From: Terrabacter sp. MAHUQ-38
Lineage (GTDB): Bacteria; Actinomycetota; Actinomycetes; Actinomycetales; Dermatophilaceae
DNA: 64,000 bases
Assembly (NCBI RefSeq): GCF_014518425.1
Contig: NZ_JACVCU010000005.1
Span: forward strand, 124,678-188,677
Direction of reading: 5' to 3'
Both the position numbers and the translations under genes were made by a program. Numbering within the stretch: the first letter of the stretch is position 1; each line of letters starts with the position of its first letter. A model generated the notes under the pieces. That model was given only the letters and a program-made list of their open reading frames with translations, ran no database searches and was not told the origin of the DNA. Shown here piece by piece: positions 13,751 through 33,649 of this stretch.

Positions 13751-15865
13751 ATGCGTCCCACGACCGACCTCCAGCGCACCGTGTCACCCTTCGAGGTCAT
13801 CTCCGACTACACCCCGAGCGGTGACCAGCCCACGGCCATCGCCGAGCTCGCGCGACGGGTCAAGGCGGGCGCGACCGACACCGTCCTGCTCGGGGCCACC
13901 GGCACCGGCAAGTCGGCCACCACGGCCTGGCTCATCGAGCAGGTGCAGCGCCCCACGCTCGTCATGGCCCCCAACAAGACGCTCGCCGCCCAGCTCGCCA
14001 ACGAGTTCCGCGAGCTGCTGCCCAACAACGCGGTCGAGTACTTCGTCAGCTACTACGACTACTACCAGCCCGAGGCGTACATCCCCCAGACCGACACCTA
14101 CATCGAGAAGGACAGCTCGGTCAACGACGAGGTCGAGCGGCTGCGGCACTCCGCCACCAACTCGCTGCTGACCCGCCGCGATGTCATCGTCGTCGCCTCG
14201 GTGTCGTGCATCTACGGCCTCGGCACACCGCAGGAGTACGTCGACCGGATGGCCCGGCTCAAGGTGGGCCAGGAGATCGTGCGCGACGACCTGCTGCGCC
14301 GGTTCGTCGAGATGCAGTACACCCGCAACGACCTCGCGTTCACGAGGGGCACGTTCCGGGTGCGCGGCGACACCGTCGAGATCATCCCCGTCTACGAGGA
14401 GCTCGCGATCCGCATCGAGTTCTTCGGCGACGAGATCGAGCGCATCTACACGCTGCACCCGGTGACCGGTGAGGTCGTCAACGAGGAGCAGGAGATGTAC
14501 GTCTTCCCGGCGTCGCACTACGTCGCCGGCCCCGAGCGCATGGAGCGAGCGATCCGCGGCATCGAGCTCGAGCTCGAGGACCAGCTCGCGCTCTTCGAGA
14601 AGCAGGGCAAGCTCCTCGAGGCCCAGCGACTGCGCATGCGGACCACGTACGACGTCGAGATGATGCGGCAGGTCGGCTTCTGCAACGGCATCGAGAACTA
14701 CAGCCGCCACATCGACGGCCGCACTGCCGGCTCGGCCCCGAACTGCCTGCTCGACTACTTCCCCGAGGACTTCCTCCTCGTCCTCGACGAGTCACACCAG
14801 ACCGTGCCCCAGATCGGTGCGATGTACGAGGGCGACATGTCGCGCAAGCGGATGCTCGTCGAGCACGGCTTCCGGCTGCCGAGCGCCATGGACAACCGGC
14901 CGCTCAAGTGGGAGGAGTTCCTGGAGCGCATCGGCCAGACCATCTACCTGTCGGCCACGCCGGGGGAGTACGAGCTGGCCAAGTCGGGTCCGCCGGTGGA
15001 GCAGATCATCCGGCCGACGGGCCTCGTCGACCCCGAGGTCGTGCTCAAGCCGACCAAGGGGCAGATCGACGACCTCATGCACGAGATCCAGGAGCGCACG
15101 AAGCGCGACGAACGCGTCCTTGTCACGACCCTGACGAAGAAGATGGCGGAGGACCTGACCGACTACCTCCTCGACAAGGGCATCCGGGTCCGCTACCTCC
15201 ACAGCGACATCGACACCCTCCGTCGCGTCGAGCTGCTGCGCGAGCTGCGCACCGGTGTCTTCGACGTGCTCGTCGGGATCAACCTGCTGCGTGAGGGCCT
15301 CGACCTCCCCGAGGTCTCCCTGGTGTCGATCCTCGACGCCGACAAGGAGGGCTTCCTGCGTTCCGCGCGGTCGCTCATCCAGACCATCGGTCGTGCGGCG
15401 CGAAACGTGTCGGGCCAGGTGCACATGTACGCCGACAAGGTCACGCCCTCGATGGAGCAGGCTCTCGACGAGACGAACCGTCGCCGCGAGAAGCAGGTCG
15501 CCTACAACACCGCGAACGGCATCGACCCCACGCCGCTGCGCAAGAAGATCGCCGACATCACCGACCTGCTCGAGCGTGAGGACGCCGACACCCAGGAGCT
15601 GCTCGGGTCCGGGCGCATGCAGTCGCGCGGCAAGAGCGGTGCCGGTCGTGGCGCGATGGCGGCCGACGTCGGCGTCTCCGCGGGTGGCTCCACCAACCGC
15701 CCGGCCGACATGGCGGCCGCGGACCTCGCCGGCCTGATCCAGGAGCTGACGACGCAGATGCACCAGGCCGCCGCCGAGCTGCACTTCGAGCTCGCGGCGC
15801 GCCTGCGCGACGAGATCGGAGACCTCAAGAAGGAGCTGCGGCAGATGAGCGCCGCCACCCGATGA
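13751..15865 (+). CDS. uvrB: UvrABC excinuclease subunit B
   Basis: A 704-residue helicase-like subunit of nucleotide excision repair. UvrA loads it on damaged DNA, where it verifies the lesion and recruits UvrC. Seen are Walker A GATGTGKS (48-55), the beta-hairpin that clamps DNA ([20 protein letters not shown]), the DEAH-like box VLDESHQT, the helicase motif (QTIGRAARN) and a C-terminal UVR domain ([20 protein letters not shown]) that contacts UvrC. A Gly/Ser/Arg-rich linker near residues 618-655 precedes the UVR domain. Its stop overlaps the next start (ATGA). uvrA and uvrC lie 12-18 kb downstream. Confidence 0.98.
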
Positions 15866-20842: not shown

Positions 20843-21154
20843 ATGGAAGAGCGAATCACCCTAGAAGGATTCGACCCGCCGAAGAACCGTCGGCACGGCC
20901 CGGACGGCGACCTCGTCGACGTACAGGGTTGGCTCCACGCCCCGGTCGACTGGACGGGAGGACCGCGGCTCGAGCGGGCCTGGCGCGACCGTCACGGCCA
21001 GTCACGGCTCGGCGTCGGTCTCTCGGTGGCGAACAACCCGAGGCGCCACATCCTCGTGACGAACGTCTCGGCCGACCTCGACTTCGTGAGGTCCGAGCTC
21101 GAGTCGCTCATCGCCGAGTTCGAGCCCCAGGAGTCGCTCGAAGGCGCCCAGTAG
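20843..21154 (+). CDS. Small uncharacterised protein
   Basis: A 103-residue soluble protein that I do not recognise. It starts MEERITLEGFDPPKNRRHGP, is Arg/Asp-rich, has no Cys, no signal peptide and no membrane span. The central part (VQGWLHAPVDWTGGPRLERA) and the end (RRHILVTNVSADLDFVRSEL) look like a compact alpha-beta fold with a terminal helix. A longer upstream open frame overlaps the divergent peptidase gene and is unlikely to be coding; the -10 just before ATG 20843 supports the short form. It precedes the fused response regulator gene but has its own promoter. Confidence 0.6.
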   Translation: MEERITLEGFDPPKNRRHGPDGDLVDVQGWLHAPVDWTGGPRLERAWRDRHGQSRLGVGLSVANNPRRHILVTNVSADLDFVRSELESLIAEFEPQESLEGAQ

Positions 21155-21289: not shown

Positions 21290-22948
21290 GTGACGAGACC
21301 GGCCATCATCACGGTCGACGACGACGCGCCGGTCTCCGCCGCGATCGCCAGGGACCTCAGGGCGCGCTACGGCGCGGACTACCGCATCGTGCGCGCCGGC
21401 TCGGGGGCCGAGGCGCTCGACGTCGTCGGCCGGCTCGTCCTGCGCGGCCAGTCGGTCGCGCTCGTCGCCTCCGACCAGCGGATGCCGGGCATGACCGGCA
21501 TCGAGCTGCTCGCCCGGGTGCGCGTCGACGCCCCGGACGCGAAGCTGTTGTTGCTCACGGCGTACGCCGACACCGACGTCGCCATCTCGGCGATCAACGA
21601 CATCGGCCTCGACCACTACCTGCTCAAGCCGTGGGACCCGCCAGAGGACCGGCTGTACCCCGTCGTCGACGACCTGCTCTCGGACTGGCGCAACGCTCAT
21701 CCGGAGGAGACCAACGACGTCCGCGTCGTCGGCGACCGGTGGTCGGAAGGCAGCCAGCTCGTCAAGGCGTTCCTCGCGAACAACCACGTGCCGTACGTGT
21801 GGCTCGATGTCGAGCGCGACGAGGAAGGTGCCCGCCTGCGGGACCTCGCCCAGGCGAAGCCGGACGACCTTCCGCTGGTCCTCGTGCCGGACGGCGAGAC
21901 GCTCCGGGCACCCACGACGGTCGCGGTCGCGACGGCCCTCGGCCTGCGGACCCGGGCCGAGCGCGACCTCTACGACCTCTGCATCGTCGGTGGTGGTCCG
22001 GCCGGTCTCGCCGCCGCGGTCTACGCCGCGTCCGAGGGACTGAGCACCGTCATCGTCGAGCACGACGCTCCCGGGGGTCAGGCCGGCCAGAGCGCGGCCA
22101 TCGAGAACTACCTCGGGTTCCCGCGCGGGCTCTCGGGGTCCGACCTGGCGCAGCGGGCCATCGCGCAGGCGCGACGGTTCGGCGCCGAGATGGTGCTGGC
22201 CCGTGACGTGGTGGCGCTGGAGTCCCGCGGCCCGGTTCGCGCGGTGCGGCTCGAGGGCTCCGACGACATCGAGGCCCGCAGCATCGTGCTGGCCACCGGC
22301 GTCGCGTACCGGCGGTTGGAGGCAGCCGGGGTCGACTCCCTCACCGGGCGTGGGGTGCACTACGGCTCGAACGCCGCCCAGGCCGCCGCCTGCAAGGGCG
22401 ACGAGGTCTACGTCGTCGGCGCCGCGAACTCCGCGGGGCAGGCTGTGCTCAACCTCGCGAGGTTCGCCCGGCGCGTCACGCTGCTGGTCCGCGGCGACTC
22501 TCTCGAGGCGAGCATGTCGCAGTACCTCGTGGAGCGGATCCGCGCCGACGACCGGATCCGGGTGCTGTGCCGCACCGAGGTCGTCGGCGCCGACGGCGAC
22601 GGACATCTCGAGCGGCTCACTCTCGCCGACAGGCACACCGGCGCGACGACCCTGGTCGAGGCGGCGTGGCTGTTCGTCTACATCGGGGCCTCGCCCCGCA
22701 CGGACTGGCTCGGGTCCGACGTCTCTCGTGACGACCACGGCTTCGTCGTCACGGGGCACGACCTCGTCACTGGCCCGCACGCCGGCGGCTGGTCCCTGTC
22801 CCGCCCCCCGTTCGCGCTCGAGACCAGCCTGCCCGGTGTGTTCGCGGCCGGTGACGTGCGCTCCGACTCGATGAAGCGCGTCGCCTCGGCGGTCGGCGAG
22901 GGGTCGATGTCGGTGTACTTCGTCCACCGGTACCTCGCCACGATCTGA
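21290..22948 (+). CDS. Response regulator fused to glutaredoxin-like and thioredoxin-reductase-like domains
   Basis: 552 residues in three parts. (1) Receiver domain, 1-128: acidic pocket Asp10-12, phospho-acceptor Asp62 (SDQRMPGM), Thr90 and Lys113 (LLKPW). (2) Residues ~143-222: thioredoxin/glutaredoxin-like fold, but the CxxC position reads DRWSEGSQ. (3) Residues ~226-552: FAD/NAD(P)H oxidoreductase of the thioredoxin reductase type, with GGGPAG (234-239), the NADPH-site GAANSAG (377-383) and FAGD-like PGVFAAGDVR. The redox CxxC of TrxR is missing (GVHYGSNAAQ, 355-364). So both disulfide centres are gone while phosphorylation, FAD and NADPH sites look intact. The kinase gene starts 18 bases later. 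The architecture exists in other bacteria, but I know of no characterised function. Confidence 0.85.
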   Translation: MTRPAIITVDDDAPVSAAIARDLRARYGADYRIVRAGSGAEALDVVGRLVLRGQSVALVASDQRMPGMTGIELLARVRVDAPDAKLLLLTAYADTDVAISAINDIGLDHYLLKPWDPPEDRLYPVVDDLLSDWRNAHPEETNDVRVVGDRWSEGSQLVKAFLANNHVPYVWLDVERDEEGARLRDLAQAKPDDLPLVLVPDGETLRAPTTVAVATALGLRTRAERDLYDLCIVGGGPAGLAAAVYAASEGLSTVIVEHDAPGGQAGQSAAIENYLGFPRGLSGSDLAQRAIAQARRFGAEMVLARDVVALESRGPVRAVRLEGSDDIEARSIVLATGVAYRRLEAAGVDSLTGRGVHYGSNAAQAAACKGDEVYVVGAANSAGQAVLNLARFARRVTLLVRGDSLEASMSQYLVERIRADDRIRVLCRTEVVGADGDGHLERLTLADRHTGATTLVEAAWLFVYIGASPRTDWLGSDVSRDDHGFVVTGHDLVTGPHAGGWSLSRPPFALETSLPGVFAAGDVRSDSMKRVASAVGEGSMSVYFVHRYLATI

Positions 22949-22966
22949 CGTCAGAGAGGACAGTGC

Positions 22967-24370
22967 ATGCTCGACCTCGCCGACCTACGGAAGGTCCCGC
23001 TGTTCGACGGTCTCCGCGACGACCAGCTCGCGGTGCTGCTCGCCGACGGGGCGGAGCAGCCGGTGATCCCGGGCGAGGTCGTGTTTCGCGAAGGCGACCA
23101 CGCGGACGACTGGTGGGTGCTCGTCGACGGGGCGCTCGACCTCTCGCGGCACATCGGGCGCGAGGACGTCGTCGTCGGCCGGATGGACGTCCCGGGCCGC
23201 TGGGCGGGCGGCTTCCGCGCCTGGGACGAGCAGGGCGTCTACCTCGCCACCGCACGCGGCGTGACGGCCGGGCGCCTACTGCGCGTATCGTCCGAGCGGC
23301 TCCACGAGCTCGCCAACGAGTGGTTCCCCTTCGCGGCGCACCTGGTCGCCGGCCTCTACGGGACGGCGCGGTCGATCGAGGCCACGGCGCGCCAGCGCAA
23401 CGGGCTCGTCACCCTCGGCACGCTCGCCGCTGGTCTCGCCCACGAGATCAACAACCCGGCAGCCGCAGCCACTCGGTCGGCGGCGGAGCTCGAACGGGCC
23501 TGCGACGGCCTGCTCGACTCACTTCGGCACATGGCCGTCAGCGAGGTGACCGCGGCGCAGTTCAACGAGCTCGACGCGCTGCGCCGCGAGCTGAAGCCGC
23601 CGACGGCGCTTGCGGATCCGCTCGAGACCGCAGATCGCGAGGAAGTGCTGGGCGACTGGCTCGAACGCTCCGGCGTCGACAAGCCGTGGGATCTCGCGCC
23701 GGCGCTCGTGTCGGCCGGGGCCGACGTGGCGTGGCTCGAGCGCGCGGCCGCCGCGACCGCGCCTGACGCGCTCGATGCCTCGCTCGGGTGGGTCGCGCGC
23801 ACCATCGACGTGTCGGCGCTGCTCGCCGAGGTCCGCGAGTCGACGCGTCGTGTGTCGGAGCTCGTCGCCGGCATCAAGACGTACTCGCAGATGGACCGCG
23901 CGTCACACCAGCGGCTCGACGTCCGTGAAGGTCTCGAGAGCACGTTGCTGGTCATGGGCCCGCGGCTGCGCGAGGGCGTCACGGTCGTGCGCGACTGGGG
24001 GACTGACGTACCCCTCGTCGACGGGCTGCCCGGTGAGCTCAACCAGGTGTGGACCAACCTCGTCGACAACGCCGTCGACGCGATGGAGGGCTCGGGCACC
24101 CTCACGGTGCGGACGCGGCGCGACGGCGACGCGGTCCTCGTGGAGGTCCGCGACACCGGCGTGGGCCTGAGCCCCGAGGCGCAGCAGCGTGCCTTCGAGG
24201 CGTTCTACACGACGAAGGACGTCGGTCGCGGGACCGGCCTCGGACTCGACATCGCACAACGCATCGTCGTCGACCGCCACGGGGGCACGATCGAGGTCGA
24301 GTCGCGGCCGGGGGACACGCGCTTCCGCGTGCGGCTGCCGATCACCTCGCCGACGCCGACCGGCCCCTGA
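22967..24370 (+). CDS. Sensor histidine kinase with N-terminal cyclic-nucleotide-binding-like domain
   Basis: 467 residues, no membrane span, so a cytosolic kinase. Residues 1-120 resemble a CRP/cNMP-binding barrel (PGEVVFREGDHADDWWVLVD), though the phosphate-binding cassette is not clearly conserved. The kinase core has the H-box GLAHEINNPAAAA with His159, N-box NQVWTNLVDNAVDAM, G1 DTGVGL and G2 GRGTGLGLDIAQ. It should phosphorylate itself and then the receiver of the upstream fusion protein. GAGAGGA lies about 9 bases before the ATG. A pair of 32-base direct repeats follows the stop. Confidence 0.88.
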   Translation: MLDLADLRKVPLFDGLRDDQLAVLLADGAEQPVIPGEVVFREGDHADDWWVLVDGALDLSRHIGREDVVVGRMDVPGRWAGGFRAWDEQGVYLATARGVTAGRLLRVSSERLHELANEWFPFAAHLVAGLYGTARSIEATARQRNGLVTLGTLAAGLAHEINNPAAAATRSAAELERACDGLLDSLRHMAVSEVTAAQFNELDALRRELKPPTALADPLETADREEVLGDWLERSGVDKPWDLAPALVSAGADVAWLERAAAATAPDALDASLGWVARTIDVSALLAEVRESTRRVSELVAGIKTYSQMDRASHQRLDVREGLESTLLVMGPRLREGVTVVRDWGTDVPLVDGLPGELNQVWTNLVDNAVDAMEGSGTLTVRTRRDGDAVLVEVRDTGVGLSPEAQQRAFEAFYTTKDVGRGTGLGLDIAQRIVVDRHGGTIEVESRPGDTRFRVRLPITSPTPTGP

Positions 24371-25166: not shown

Positions 25167-25868
25167 TCAGCCTCCGAACGGCAGGGTCGGGACCGGGCCG
25201 TCGAACTCGACGCCGTCGGTGCTCCCTCGGGCGAGCCACATCAGCACGTCGGCGCGCGCGCCCGAGACCCGGGTCGTTCCGTCGCCCACCGTGTAGTCGT
25301 CGCCCTCGGTGGTCCTGACGCGCATCGACGGCGGGTTGTCGTCGTGGGTCAGGCGGTTGACGGCGTCGCGCAGGAACAGGGCGACGACCTCGGCCGGGGC
25401 GCCCGCGAACGTGTATCCGGCATCGAGGTCGACGTGGTGGTAGACGACCTCGCGCAGCCGCATGAACGGGACCATCCGGACCTCGATCGGGAACCCGCCC
25501 GGCGTCCGCTCGACCCGCACCTCGGCGTGCTCCGGTCCCAGGGCCTGGAGCCGCTCGGCCAGACGCGCGGCGCTGTCGCGGATGTCCGTCGCCTGGTCGT
25601 CCGCCGACCGGCGGGCACCGCGGGCGATGTCGGCATCGCGGGCCTCGGCGTCGTCGTACATGGTGTCGGGGGTGCCGGTCAGGGCCACGTCGCACACCCG
25701 GGCGAGCGCGTCGGCATTGCGGGCCACGTGCGACAGGACGTGGCCGCGCGACCAGCCCTCGCACAGCGACGGTGCGAGGACGGCGTCGTTGCGGAAGCTG
25801 GCCGCGGTGGCGAGCAGCCGTTCCGTCTCGGCGGTGACGAGCTCGGCCGTCACGTCAGCGTGCTTCAT
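25167..25868 (-). CDS. Maleylpyruvate isomerase family mycothiol-dependent protein
   Basis: 233 residues of the DinB/MDMPI superfamily: an N-terminal four-helix-bundle metal-binding domain ([20 protein letters not shown], then [16 protein letters not shown]) and a C-terminal MDMPI domain. Characterised relatives use mycothiol, the actinobacterial thiol, to isomerise maleylpyruvate or to conjugate electrophiles. Its ATG lies inside the end of the GH15 gene (14-base overlap), and the MBL gene follows after 3 bases, so the three are co-transcribed. The actual substrate is unknown. Confidence 0.82.
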
Positions 25869-27678
25869 GGGTGGCCTTTCCGGTCGCCTTCTCGAGGGCC
25901 AGCGCGGCCCCGACGAGGGTCAGGTGCGAGAACGCCTGGGGGAAGTTGCCCACCATGCGCTCGCCAATCGGGTCGTACTCCTCCGAGAGCAGGCCGACAT
26001 CGTTCGTGAGGCCGACGAGGCGGTCCATCAGCTCGGTGGCTTGCGTCGTCATACCCGCCTTCGCGTAGGCGGTCACGAGCCAGAAGGAGCAGGCCAGGAA
26101 GGGGTGCTCGTCACCGGAGATCCCGTCGACGTTGGTCTCGGTGCGGTAGCGCATGACGAGGCCGTCGCGCAGCAGGTCGTTCTCGACCGCGGCGATGGTG
26201 CCGAGCATCCTCGGGTCGTCGCCGTCGACGAACCCGACCGACGACAGCGTCAGGAGCGAGGCGTCGACCTCCGTCGTGTCGTAGTGCTGGACGAACGTGT
26301 TCCTCTCGACGCTGAAGCCCTTCTCCATGACCTCCTCGCGCACCCGGTCACGCAGCTCGCGCCACTCGTCCACCGGGCCCTCGAGACCGTAGCGCTCCAC
26401 GGCGCGGATGGCCCGGTCGAAGGCCGCCCACACCATCACCCGGGAGTGCGTGAAGTGCCGGAGCGGGCCACGGACCTCCCACAGGCCGTTGTCGGCCTCC
26501 TCCCAGTGCTTCGCGAGGTGGTTGACCAGGGCGCGCTGGAGGTACCACGAGTCGTCGTTGTCCTCGAGCCCCCGCGAGCGGGCGTGGTCGAGCGAGATCA
26601 TCACCTCGCCCAGCACATCCGTCTGCCGCTGGTCCACGGCGGCGTTGCCGACACGTACGGGCTGCGACCCGGCATACCCCGGGAGATGGCTCAGCACCCG
26701 CTCGGGGAGGTCACGTCCGCCGTCGACGCGGTACATGATCTGCATGTCCTCGGGGTCACCGGCGACGGCCCTCAGCAGCCAGGCCCGCCACAGCTCGGTC
26801 TCCTGGACGTAGCCGCAGCCGAGCAGCGCCTCGAGAGTCAGCGCGGCGTCGCGCAGCCAGCAGAACCGGTAGTCCCAGTTGCGCTCGCCCCCGAACTCCT
26901 CGGGCAACGACGACGTGGCGGCTGCCACGATGCCGCCCGTCGCCTGGTGCGTGAGCGCGCGCAGCACGAGCAGCGAGCGGGTGACGGTCGACGCGTACGG
27001 GCCGGTGTAGTGGCTCCGTGCCGCGTACTCCTCGCTGAGCGCGATCGTCTCCAGGATGCGCGCGCGGATGCGGAGCGGCGGCGGGATGGGCTCGTGGCTG
27101 CGGAACCACGTGGTCGAGAACGTCAGCACGTCGCCGGCCGACACGTCGAACTCGTCGACGTGGTGACCGTCCTGGGCATGTGGGAGCCTGGCGCCACGGA
27201 GCACGAGCATGTCGGGGCCCGCGATCGCCGTGATGATCTCGTCGGTGCGTCCCTCGAGGTCCTCGGTGTCGCGCATGACCCAGGGGCGGGTGCGGCCGTA
27301 GTTGAACCGCACCGTCCACTCGTGGACCATCCGCACCGTTCCCTCGAGCCCCTCGACGCGGCGCAGGACGTCGGACCGGCCGTCGCCGAGCGGCATGACG
27401 TCGGTGACCTTGACCCGGCCGGTCGAGGTCTCGTGCGTCGTCTCGAGCACGAACGAGTTACCGACGTAGCGGCGCGTGGTCACGGCGTCCTCGTCGACGG
27501 GCGCGATGAGCCACCGGCCGTGCTCGGGCGTGCCGAGCAGCGCCGAGAAGCATGCGCGCGAGTCGAAGCGGGGCAGGCACAACCAGTCGATGGAGCCGCG
27601 CCGGCTCACGAGGGCGGCCGTGCCGAGGTCGCCGAGCATGGCGTAGTCCTCGATCGGGGTGGGCACGTGCTCACTCAT
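25855..27678 (-). CDS. Glycoside hydrolase family 15 protein (glucoamylase/trehalase-like)
   Basis: A 607-residue enzyme. The N-terminal beta-sandwich domain ([32 protein letters not shown]) is followed by the alpha/alpha-barrel with the signature [18 protein letters not shown]. In actinobacteria this GH15 group includes acid trehalases and glucoamylases that release glucose from trehalose or alpha-glucans. No signal peptide, so cytosolic. ATG 27678 gives the family start [17 protein letters not shown]. The frame stays open far upstream on this strand, but that part is only the antisense of uvrA. It is the first gene of a three-gene operon and diverges from uvrA. Confidence 0.88.
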
Positions 27679-27779
27679 GACTGCGAGTATGCCGTTCCGC
27701 CGGGCCGGAAGTGCTGCGCCCCGCCCCGTCCGTGTCGTCTCCGCCCGCCGCCGATGAGGGTACTGTCGGCGACCCCACC

Positions 27780-27785
27780 TAGCAT
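27780..27785 (+). promoter_or_regulatory. -10 element of uvrA, leaderless type
   Basis: TAGCAT ends 7 bases before GTG 27793 and itself contains part of the upstream in-frame ATG (27784). This makes the GTG the likelier start. Confidence 0.5.
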
Positions 27786-27792
27786 GTTGCGC

Positions 27793-30917
<3,125 letters not shown>

Positions 30918-30921
<4 letters not shown>

Positions 30922-31531: not shown

Positions 31532-33649
31532 GTGGCCGACCCGACGACCTATCGACCGAAGCCGGGGGAGATCCCGACCGACCCGGGCGTCTACCGGTTC
31601 CGCGACTCCCACGGTCGGGTGATCTACGTCGGCAAGGCCAAGTCCCTGCGTCCCCGGCTGTCGTCGTACTTCCAGGACATCACGGCGCTGCACCCGCGCA
31701 CGGCGACGATGGTCACGACTGCATCCTCCGTCGAGTGGACTGTCGTGCGCACCGAGGTCGAGGCGCTACAGCTCGAGTACTCCTGGATCAAGGAGTTCGA
31801 CCCGCGCTTCAACGTCAAGTACCGCGACGACAAGTCCTACCCGTTCCTCGCCGTGACCATGGGCGAGGAGTTCCCCCGGGCCCAGGTGATGCGTGGCGCG
31901 AAGCGCAAGGGCACCCGCTACTTCGGTCCCTATGGGCATGCCTGGGCGATCCGCGAGACCCTCGACCTGCTGCTGCGGGTCTTCCCGCTGCGCACGTGCT
32001 CCTCCGGTGTCTTCAAGCGCGCCGCCTCGAGCGGCCGCCCGTGCCTGCTCGGCTACATCGACAAGTGCTCGGCGCCGTGCGTCGGCAGGGTCACCGCCGA
32101 CGAGCACCGGGCCATCGCCGAGGACTTCTGCGACTTCATGGCCGGCAACACCACTCGCTTCGCCAAGCGGCTCGAGACCCGGATGAAGGAGGCCGCGGCA
32201 GAGCTGGACTTCGAGCAGGCGGCCCGGCTCCGCGACGACATCGGCGCTCTGACCAAGGCGCTCGAGAAGCAGGCCGTCGTCCTCGGCGACGGCACCGACG
32301 CCGACGTCTTCGCCCTCGCCGATGACGACCTCGAGGCCGCGGTCCAGGTCTTCCACGTGCGCGGTGGTCGCATCCGCGGTCAGCGCGGCTGGGTCGTCGA
32401 GAAGGAGAGCGAGGACGTCCCCACGCTCGTCGAGCACCTCCTCCAGCAGGTCTACGGCGACGCCGACCGCGACGCCGTGCCGCGCGAGGTCCTCGTCCCG
32501 ACGGTGCCGACCGACCTCGAGGCGGTCACCGAGTGGCTGACGTCGGTGCGCGGCTCGGGGGTCAGCGTGCGGGTGCCGCAGCGCGGCGACAAGCGGACCC
32601 TGATGGAGACGGTGCGGCGCAACGCCGAACAGTCCCTCGCCAGGCACAAGGTCGCCCGGGCCGGCGACCTCACCCTGCGCAGCCGGGCCCTGCAGGAGCT
32701 GCAGGACTACCTCGGCCTCGACGACCCCCCGCTGCGCATCGAGTGCTACGACGTGAGCCACGTGCAGGGCACCAACGTCGTCGCGTCGATGGTCGTCTTC
32801 GAGGACGGCCTCGCGCGCAAGAGCGAGTACCGCCGCTTCATCGTGCGCGGCGCGGCCTCCGCCGCCGAGGCCGGTCCCACCCGCAACGGCCTGGAGCGCC
32901 AGGCCACGGTCGACGACACCGCGGCGATGCGCGAGGTGCTGACCCGCCGCTTCCGCCGCTACCTCGAGGAGGCCGAGGGTGTCGGTGACCTCGACCTGTC
33001 CACGGGTGTCGTGGGCGCGTCCGATGCCGAGGGGGACACGACGGGCGGCCGCGCCGCGGACACGGGTGTCGCCGGCAGAGGCCCGGGTGGCGCGATCGAC
33101 GAGGACGAGGGTCCGTCGTCGTCCGGTCCGATCGACCCCCAGACCGGCCGCCCCCGCCGCTTCGCCTACCCACCCAGCCTCGTCGTCGTCGACGGCGGTC
33201 TCCCGCAGGTCAACGCCGCGCAGGCCGTCCTCGACGAGCTCGGCATCGAGGAGGTCGCGCTCGTCGGGCTCGCCAAGCGCCTCGAGGAGGTGTGGCTCCC
33301 GCGCGACGACCACCCCGTGATCCTGCCCCGCACCAGCGAAGGCCTCTACCTGCTCCAGCGCCTCCGCGACGAGGCCCACCGGTTCGCCATCACGTTCCAC
33401 CGCCAGCGCCGTTCGAAGGCGATGACGACGTCCCAGCTGGACGGCATACCCGGGCTCGGCGCGAGCCGGCAGAAGGCTCTGCTGCGCCACTTCGGTTCGG
33501 TCAAACGCCTTCGTGCTGCGGACGTGACGGACATCATGGCCCTACCCGGCTTCGGCCGGTCGCTTGCCTCGGCGGTCGTCAACCACTTGGCTGAGGGAGC
33601 CCCGCAGGAGCCAGCCGTGAACCTCACGACGGGAGAAGTGCTCGAATGA
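31532..33649 (+). CDS. uvrC: UvrABC excinuclease subunit C
   Basis: 705 residues. UvrC makes the two incisions around the lesion. Order: GIY-YIG nuclease ([20 protein letters not shown]), Cys-rich segment ([17 protein letters not shown]), UVR domain ([20 protein letters not shown]), RNase H-like nuclease ([20 protein letters not shown] and [13 protein letters not shown]), and a C-terminal helix-hairpin-helix pair. An acidic Gly/Asp/Ser-rich insert of ~60 residues (about 484-546) interrupts the RNase H-like part. It starts a tight uvrC-rapZ-yvcK run; the stop overlaps rapZ (ATGA). Confidence 0.97.

Follow-up and report, generated by a model that had tools for sequence, protein, structure and literature searches.

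A response regulator of Terrabacter sp. MAHUQ-38 that joins a receiver to a glutaredoxin- and thioredoxin reductase-like flavoprotein without CxxC motifs

We studied a two-gene system in a window of Terrabacter sp. MAHUQ-38 DNA (the whole stretch analyzed, 64,000 nucleotides; contig NZ_JACVCU010000005.1, positions 124,678 to 188,677 of the forward strand). The first gene encodes a response regulator, P0001, whose receiver is joined to a thioredoxin reductase (TrxR)-like flavoprotein, and the second a histidine kinase, P0002, with an N-terminal domain of the cyclic nucleoside monophosphate (cNMP)-binding fold. The following features were assigned, numbered from the first letter of the window:

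21290..22948, + strand: response regulator P0001 (receiver, glutaredoxin-like domain and TrxR-like flavoprotein without CxxC), an open reading frame (ORF) of 552 amino acids with a GTG start
21305..21643, + strand: receiver domain, residues 6-118, with D10, D11, D62, T90 and K113 all kept (PF00072 Response_reg, 55.9 bits, and alignment columns)
21716..21955, + strand: glutaredoxin-like domain, about residues 143-222, with DRWSEGSQ (149-156) at the CxxC site of CxxC-bearing relatives (family alignment; PF00462 in relatives L185 and L218)
21971..22903, + strand: FAD/NAD(P) oxidoreductase domain, residues 228-538 (PF07992 Pyr_redox_2, 117.4 bits; TIGR01292, 212.5 bits, below its cut-off)
22967..24370, + strand: soluble histidine kinase P0002 (467 amino acids), with the cNMP-fold N-terminal domain at 35-117, H159 in the phospho-acceptor motif and HATPase_c at 356-460

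The receiver of P0001 carries the acidic pair, the phospho-acceptor Asp, the Thr/Ser and the Lys of two-component receivers. The Pfam search gave no match for the middle domain in P0001 itself; PF00462 Glutaredoxin was matched by its aligned relatives L185 (25.8 bits) and L218 (40.1 bits), and DRWSEGSQ stands where glutaredoxins have their CxxC or CxxS active site. Pfam, sequence and Foldseek matches assign the C-terminal domain to the fold of the low-molecular-mass TrxR, with its flavin adenine dinucleotide (FAD) and NAD(P) motifs; the TIGR01292 score lies below the curated NCBIfam cut-off for thioredoxin reductase (343.45 bits). Its motifs are GGGPAG (234), Y358-G359 at the lost CxxC, GAANSAGQ (377-384), R401, MSQYL (409-413) and R530. 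The reductase CxxC site reads GVHYGSNAAQ (355-364), that is, G359-S-N-A362. Neither P0001 nor P0002 has a 19-residue segment that scores above 1.6 on the Kyte-Doolittle scale, as a membrane span would. A DNA-binding output for P0001 was rejected, no DNA-binding family being among the Pfam and NCBIfam matches shown.

The kinase gene follows on the same strand after a gap of 18 nucleotides. P0002 was matched by PF00027 cNMP_binding (32.3 bits, cut-off 27.5) and HATPase_c (94.9 bits), and PF00512 remained below threshold (16.8 vs 26.9 bits); the phospho-acceptor motif around H159 and the N and G boxes (N364, DTGVGL, GTGLGL) are those of a histidine kinase. H159 and N364 are each conserved in 77 of the 79 aligned family kinases. 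The phosphate-binding cassette of canonical cNMP domains contains a Glu and an Arg. In P0002 this cassette is GGFRAWDEQGVYLATARG, without either residue, and from its sequence canonical cNMP binding is doubtful; a canonical-looking cassette, GE..LL..PR.AS, is kept in the kinases of some relatives (L042, L091). An earlier note, made from the letters of the window, had described a complete receiver (D62, T90, K113), retained FAD and NADPH motifs (GGGPAG, GAANSAG), loss of the disulfide center in both redox domains, the absence of a DNA-binding domain, and a kinase 18 bases downstream without a membrane span. All of this was borne out by our analysis, which adds D10 and D11 to the receiver. The cNMP-like barrel proposed for the kinase was upheld as a fold, not as a canonical binding site.

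The missing cysteines were found to be a trait of the family. A search of genome contigs returned at least 515 stretches encoding relatives of P0001, of which the best 80 were taken, a set that leans towards the query. Matches in these 80 loci cover most of P0001 or its full length, at 45-90% identity, the nearest named ones being from Terracoccus and Terrabacter (89-90%). They come from Acidobacteriota (32), Actinomycetota (27), Bacteroidota (8), Chloroflexota (8), one unassigned source, and Planctomycetota, Thermomicrobiota, Gemmatimonadota and Armatimonadota (1 each, each a single metagenome-assembled genome), eight named phyla in total; plasmid records add Deinococcota, Pseudomonadota and Cyanobacteriota. 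Recurrence on this scale puts the architecture beyond chance. The 80 loci were aligned with P0001 and two full-length paralogues from the same genome. In these 83 rows we found no CxxC in the reductase window and no CxxC or CxxS in the glutaredoxin window. At the lost reductase site Y358 is present in 83, G359 in 81 and E364 in 78 of the 83. Five plasmid-borne flavoproteins that were fetched have no CxxC anywhere. At least one relative is recorded as a 'cyclic nucleotide-binding domain-containing thioredoxin-disulfide reductase', yet its protein has no CxxC at all, so the name promises a reaction that is impossible by the usual route.

The relatives that keep CxxC were identified in a sample of 396 Actinomycetota genomes, 114 of which had P0001 matches at E <= 1e-50 among the matches listed; the top three candidates per genome were scored, and some fragment matches (e.g., G308, G336, G141) were left out. 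Custom profiles typed 137 regions as true-receiver (55), divergent-receiver (37), cNMP-type (23), glutaredoxin-reductase fusions without a recognized regulatory domain (13), plain TrxB (3) and other or unrecognized N-terminus (6). L121 and L057 look like one locus. All 13 unregulated fusions (L215-L227) keep the reductase CxxC, and 12 of them the glutaredoxin-site CxxC (L223 has CPDS). From the first recognized domain to the end, CxxC was found in 13 of 13 fusions and 3 of 3 TrxB, and in none of the 121 proteins that have a true receiver, a divergent receiver, a cNMP domain or another N-terminus. In a 97-row tree of the reductase domain (quick method, CxxC columns excluded; its rows include 30 receiver proteins besides P0001, 22 of the 39 with divergent receivers and 12 of the 13 CxxC fusions) the CxxC-less proteins form one side of a single branch (Shimodaira-Hasegawa-like approximate likelihood ratio test, SH-aLRT, 100). 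A 167-row tree, in which one in three of the 80-locus rows was kept, likewise placed the loss as one change. In an alignment of 48 of the 83 CxxC-less sequences described above, 75 of 592 columns are invariant. The earlier note had offered homologues with intact CxxC as a possible sign of decay; such homologues exist, but they do not indicate it, because they form a separate, supported group and the CxxC-less side is strongly conserved. Recent decay of P0001 was rejected on these grounds. The alignments and trees suggest that the cysteine loss is the state of the whole family, an old and widespread arrangement.

The CxxC-less proteins share a new active-site signature: Y358, N380-S-A-G-Q384, M409-S-x-Y-L and R530. 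It is common to true-receiver, divergent-receiver and cNMP-domain proteins alike. Y358 was present in every true-receiver row (136) and every divergent-receiver row (39) and in 21 of the 23 cNMP rows, N380 and Q384 in all 198 of these, and R530 in 135 of 136, 39 of 39 and 23 of 23, respectively, in counts that enter both same-genome paralogues twice (L004 = L175, L005 = L198) and place L210 in the CxxC group, outside which the trees and region counts put it. CxxC proteins have Gln at position 530 (one of the 13 ends before that column). M409-S410 and Y412-L413 are nearly invariant in CxxC-less rows; the CxxC fusions and TrxB have no residues in columns 409-410. Y358, N380, Q384, S410, Y412, L413 and R530 are all invariant in the 48-row alignment, and the FAD/NAD(P) motifs are nearly so across every class. 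An altered enzyme or ligand site would leave such a pattern; decay would not. The description of the output as 'redox-dead' in the earlier note was therefore too strong: dithiol chemistry alone is lost, and new residues at the flavin/NAD(P) site are conserved.

An AlphaFold2 model of P0001 was built from 48 sequences (mean predicted local distance difference test score, pLDDT, 89.2; predicted template modeling score, pTM, 0.72; residues 271-277 below 50). The first Foldseek match by E-value was AhpF (4o5q). The model was compared with the two forms of Lactococcus lactis TrxR and fits the flavin-reducing form (5mh4; TMt 0.91, root-mean-square deviation 2.6) better than the flavin-oxidizing form (5mjk_A; TMt 0.63, root-mean-square deviation 7.7). 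The predicted arrangement is therefore the one in which TrxR passes hydride to FAD.

A gene for a family kinase adjoins the flavoprotein gene in 79 of the 80 loci, downstream in 67 and upstream in 12, always on the same strand. Among the true-receiver Actinomycetota regions, 49 of 55 have a kinase match above 150 bits; in four of the others the kinase is cut by the contig end (L098, L123, L130, L143), and in L139 the contig ends at the gene. Two or three tandem kinases accompany a single flavoprotein in six of the 49 (three in L106, L107, L111 and L118; two in L102 and L122). The divergent-receiver (37) and cNMP (23) regions yielded no family kinase; flanks of 1.4 kb or more on each side are present in 26 and 17 of them, respectively (43 of 60). 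In the 69 scorable Actinomycetota regions a kinase accompanies 42 of 43 receivers with all five key residues and none of the 26 with at least one residue missing (Fisher test, p = 3.8e-18, yet with only 1-2 changes on the tree, for which reason it is not counted as independent evidence). This test left out 23 of the 92 receiver-type rows, those with less than 1.4 kb on a side: six intact with kinase, five intact without, 11 non-intact without and one non-intact with (L232, N-terminus cut). Counts made with our profile of the kinase N-terminal domain are not a clean cNMP count because the rows it was built from include at least one PAS-type kinase (L039). We rejected the label 'decayed' for the kinase-less receivers: D62 is kept in 17 of 37, and D62, T90 and K113 together in four of 37. 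Some divergent receivers may be phosphorylated by other kinases.

Both paralogues in the window genome have divergent receivers and no CxxC (45 and 41% identity to P0001). Immediately after the first (L004/L175; G000:C1:627426-629135) comes an ORF that encodes a class III cyclase domain (L175:2524-4248; PF00211, 86.2 bits; four hydrophobic stretches) and overlaps the paralogue ORF when read from stop to stop. This neighbor keeps a cyclic-nucleotide link in play, without showing one for the window pair. In the second paralogue (L005/L198; G000:C1:1320123-1321787) hardly any of the key receiver residues is left, and the region fetched around it holds no family kinase.

A protein with a zf-UBP domain (PF02148), which binds ubiquitin in eukaryotes, is a probable third component, as judged from gene neighborhood and co-occurrence. 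Burroughs, Iyer and Aravind reportedly described, in 2011, a bacterial 'cyclic nucleotide-dependent redox signaling system' that links ZF-UBP, cyclic-nucleotide domains and redox proteins. The domain was found in 95 of the 396 Actinomycetota genomes. Regulated flavoproteins were assigned to 89 genomes, i.e., the 114 less 25 judged to be of CxxC or canonical type (14 of these 25 read, 11 judged by match strength alone). Both genes were found in 69 genomes, the flavoprotein alone in 20, zf-UBP alone in 26 and neither in 281 (odds ratio 37, from genomes that are not independent of one another). Catalase (PF00199), included to control for genome size and lineage, gave an odds ratio of 4.2 when paired with the flavoprotein and of 4.5 when paired with zf-UBP; the odds ratio for flavoprotein and zf-UBP was 14 within catalase-positive and 50 within catalase-negative genomes. 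No zf-UBP was found in the 25 genomes set aside. As separate observations, 11 of the 13 unregulated CxxC fusions come from genomes in which no zf-UBP was found, and the genomes of the fusions L223 (G189) and L227 (G092) also hold the regulated type and zf-UBP.

Close to the flavoprotein gene, zf-UBP matches above 50 bits were detected in 27 of the 137 regions (true-receiver 16 of 55, cNMP 8 of 23, divergent-receiver 3 of 37) and in none of the 13 unregulated fusion, three TrxB and six other regions; about 0.45 would be expected by chance in the 1.15 Mb of regions at the density of the window genome (2 per 5.16 Mb). In the 80-locus set, nine loci have a match above 30 bits. In Streptomyces fungicidicus the flavoprotein, kinase and zf-UBP genes overlap by 4 nucleotides each. 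A single polypeptide beside a true-receiver flavoprotein (L133:2328-4085, - strand) combines cNMP (76.9 bits), HATPase (78.1 bits) and zf-UBP (40.3 bits) domains. Both C-x2-C pairs and the CC pair are invariant in 39 of 39 aligned bacterial zf-UBP domains, two of them unlinked ones from the window genome (hits below 80 bits among the Actinomycetota regions were left out). Elsewhere, an ORF in L002 (52-1698) has a C-terminal zf-UBP domain on what looks, from reading alone, like an NhaP-type cation/proton antiporter. Neither the zf-UBP link nor the two paralogues had appeared in the earlier note.

We suggest that P0001 is an NAD(P)H flavoenzyme gated by phosphorylation, with an electron acceptor outside the protein, the pair being a two-component module with an enzyme as its output. 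This reading, to which we would give nearly an even chance, is favored because CxxC-less TrxR-like enzymes with external protein acceptors are documented, in the passages of PMC10294844 that deal with them. In its favor stand the pairing with a family kinase across eight named phyla, the conserved H159 and N364 of the kinases, the joint presence of intact receivers and kinases, the cofactor motifs and signature residues kept throughout, the flavin-reducing arrangement of the model, the tandem kinases and the zf-UBP link. The computations show the domain make-up, the conserved gene pairing, the cysteine loss on one branch, the conserved signature and the zf-UBP co-occurrence; phosphotransfer, catalysis, gating and the acceptor we infer. 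P0001 would probably be switched by the adjoining sensor kinase. The barrel domain of P0002 would sense a cytoplasmic signal, here probably not plain cyclic AMP or cyclic GMP, and the kinase would phosphorylate D62 of the receiver. Phosphorylation would shift the seating of the receiver on the flavoprotein and thereby gate the step in which NAD(P)H hands hydride to FAD. With neither the internal disulfide nor the glutaredoxin dithiol left, electrons would then go straight from the flavin to an acceptor outside the protein, as they do in the CxxC-less TrxR-type ferredoxin reductases. The glutaredoxin-like domain may have been kept as a docking surface or hinge, and the zf-UBP protein would be the best candidate partner, as acceptor or adaptor.

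Several observations weigh against a gated flavoenzyme with these partners. Two loci with full flanks, L031 in the 80-locus set and L136 among the true-receiver regions, have no family kinase; a zf-UBP gene is present in L136. On the tree, the association of receiver and kinase and the loss of the cysteines each come down to roughly a single event, so p-values at the level of samples make the data look more independent than they are. The tandem kinases all belong to one genome family (code f18), and none of the 77 loci of the 80-locus set with a kinase above 150 bits has more than one. Plasmid pNe_3 of Nostoc edaphicum (L236) carries a receiver-type copy followed by a transposase-family gene, with no kinase next to it. 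(This plasmid was typed as conjugative, and a gene for an 'ATP-binding protein' lies about 2.6 kb beyond the transposase-family gene.) No zf-UBP gene adjoins the window pair, the two of the window genome being on contigs C1 and C13, and 20 of the 89 regulated-flavoprotein genomes lack zf-UBP. Of the arginines that bind the NADP phosphate in TrxR, R401 is kept in the family and the second is mostly Gly, so either NADH or NADPH may be the coenzyme. Finally, a single cofactor-free model is not proof of a locked state, and the other conformer may be reachable.

The main rival, also raised in the earlier note, is an NAD(P)H/FAD redox sensor, in which the pyridine-nucleotide or flavin state would alter the flow of phosphate between receiver and kinase, with the kinase acting downstream of the flavoprotein. 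The loss of the dithiol output with the cofactor sites kept, the nearly universal adjoining kinase in the true-receiver class and the lack of a DNA-binding or other classical output domain are all consistent with such a sensor. However, the same core also occurs under divergent receivers (37 of 137 regions) and cNMP domains (23 of 137), and since none of these 60 regions holds a family kinase, the core evidently does something without one. For this reason the sensor is ranked second, and we consider it rather unlikely. The tandem kinases (6 of 49 regions) likewise speak against a sensor, as they fit many inputs with one output, though all are from one family.

We regard as unlikely a pseudoenzyme scaffold, with structural cofactors and phosphorylation controlling only protein binding, for example to the zf-UBP protein. 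Loss of both redox centers and the strong zf-UBP co-occurrence would suit it; the conserved cofactor motifs and old-active-site positions and the flavin-reducing arrangement of the model argue against it. It is quite improbable that P0001 still reduces disulfides through a different cysteine, for example C368: this residue lies near the old active site and is Cys in 50 of the 83 aligned relatives, 90 of 136 true-receiver and 17 of 23 cNMP rows, but it is a single Cys, is Tyr, His or Thr elsewhere, and is kept in only two of 39 divergent-receiver rows. A recently decayed, functionless thioredoxin reductase is hardly credible. The absence of both CxxC motifs would suit it, but they are missing from all 83 aligned proteins, the loss lies on one well-supported branch, 75 alignment columns are invariant, and the genome also encodes a TrxB-TrxA pair with CATC. 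A broader and doubtful scenario is that the fusion family gave up its entire dithiol relay in a single event, remade the active site and gained interchangeable N-terminal control, with the C-x2-C and CC pairs of zf-UBP supplying a dithiol in trans as the redox-responsive target.

If the gated flavoenzyme is correct, kinases in bacteria of many phyla switch a flavoenzyme directly, bypassing transcription, and a zinc-finger domain familiar mainly from ubiquitin research is involved. Tests could draw on the signature residues, the sister group that keeps CxxC and the overlapping three-gene cluster.

In the window, a small ORF of 103 amino acids without a Pfam match lies just upstream of the pair (20843-21154). 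The ORFs at 13751-15865, 25462-30921 and 31532-33649, which flank the pair, we take to be UvrB, UvrA and UvrC. No catalase (PF00199) candidate was found in the 5.16 Mb window genome (18 contigs, with an estimated completeness of 100%), in a search that did not extend to KatG.

P0001 resembles AhpF and NTRC, in which a TrxR core is likewise fused to a domain of the thioredoxin fold. Those two proteins depend on their dithiols for function, whereas in P0001 both dithiols are gone and a receiver is added. No experimental study of the receiver-glutaredoxin-TrxR flavoprotein family was found in the literature searched, whose coverage left out most subscription journals. The architecture is already known: response regulators combining a receiver with thioredoxin reductase have been termed a 'Mycobacterium-like combination' (PMC5847659), and P0001, with the same domain order, is an ordinary member. 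In the passages of that paper on such regulators nothing is said of absent CxxC motifs, of pairing with a kinase or of zf-UBP. In plasmid records these regulators are annotated as 'FAD-dependent oxidoreductase'. Also related are the TrxR-type ferredoxin/flavodoxin-NAD(P)+ reductases (FNRs), e.g., FNR1 and FNR2 of Bacillus cereus, which, according to the relevant passages of PMC10294844, have the TrxR fold without CxxC and pass electrons from FAD to an external acceptor. P0001 shares this CxxC-less fold; unlike the FNRs, it has a glutaredoxin-like domain and a receiver and is nearer in sequence to TrxR (5uth, 158.1 bits) than to FNR (3ab1, 74.6 bits), so that by sequence its loss of the cysteines looks independent of theirs.

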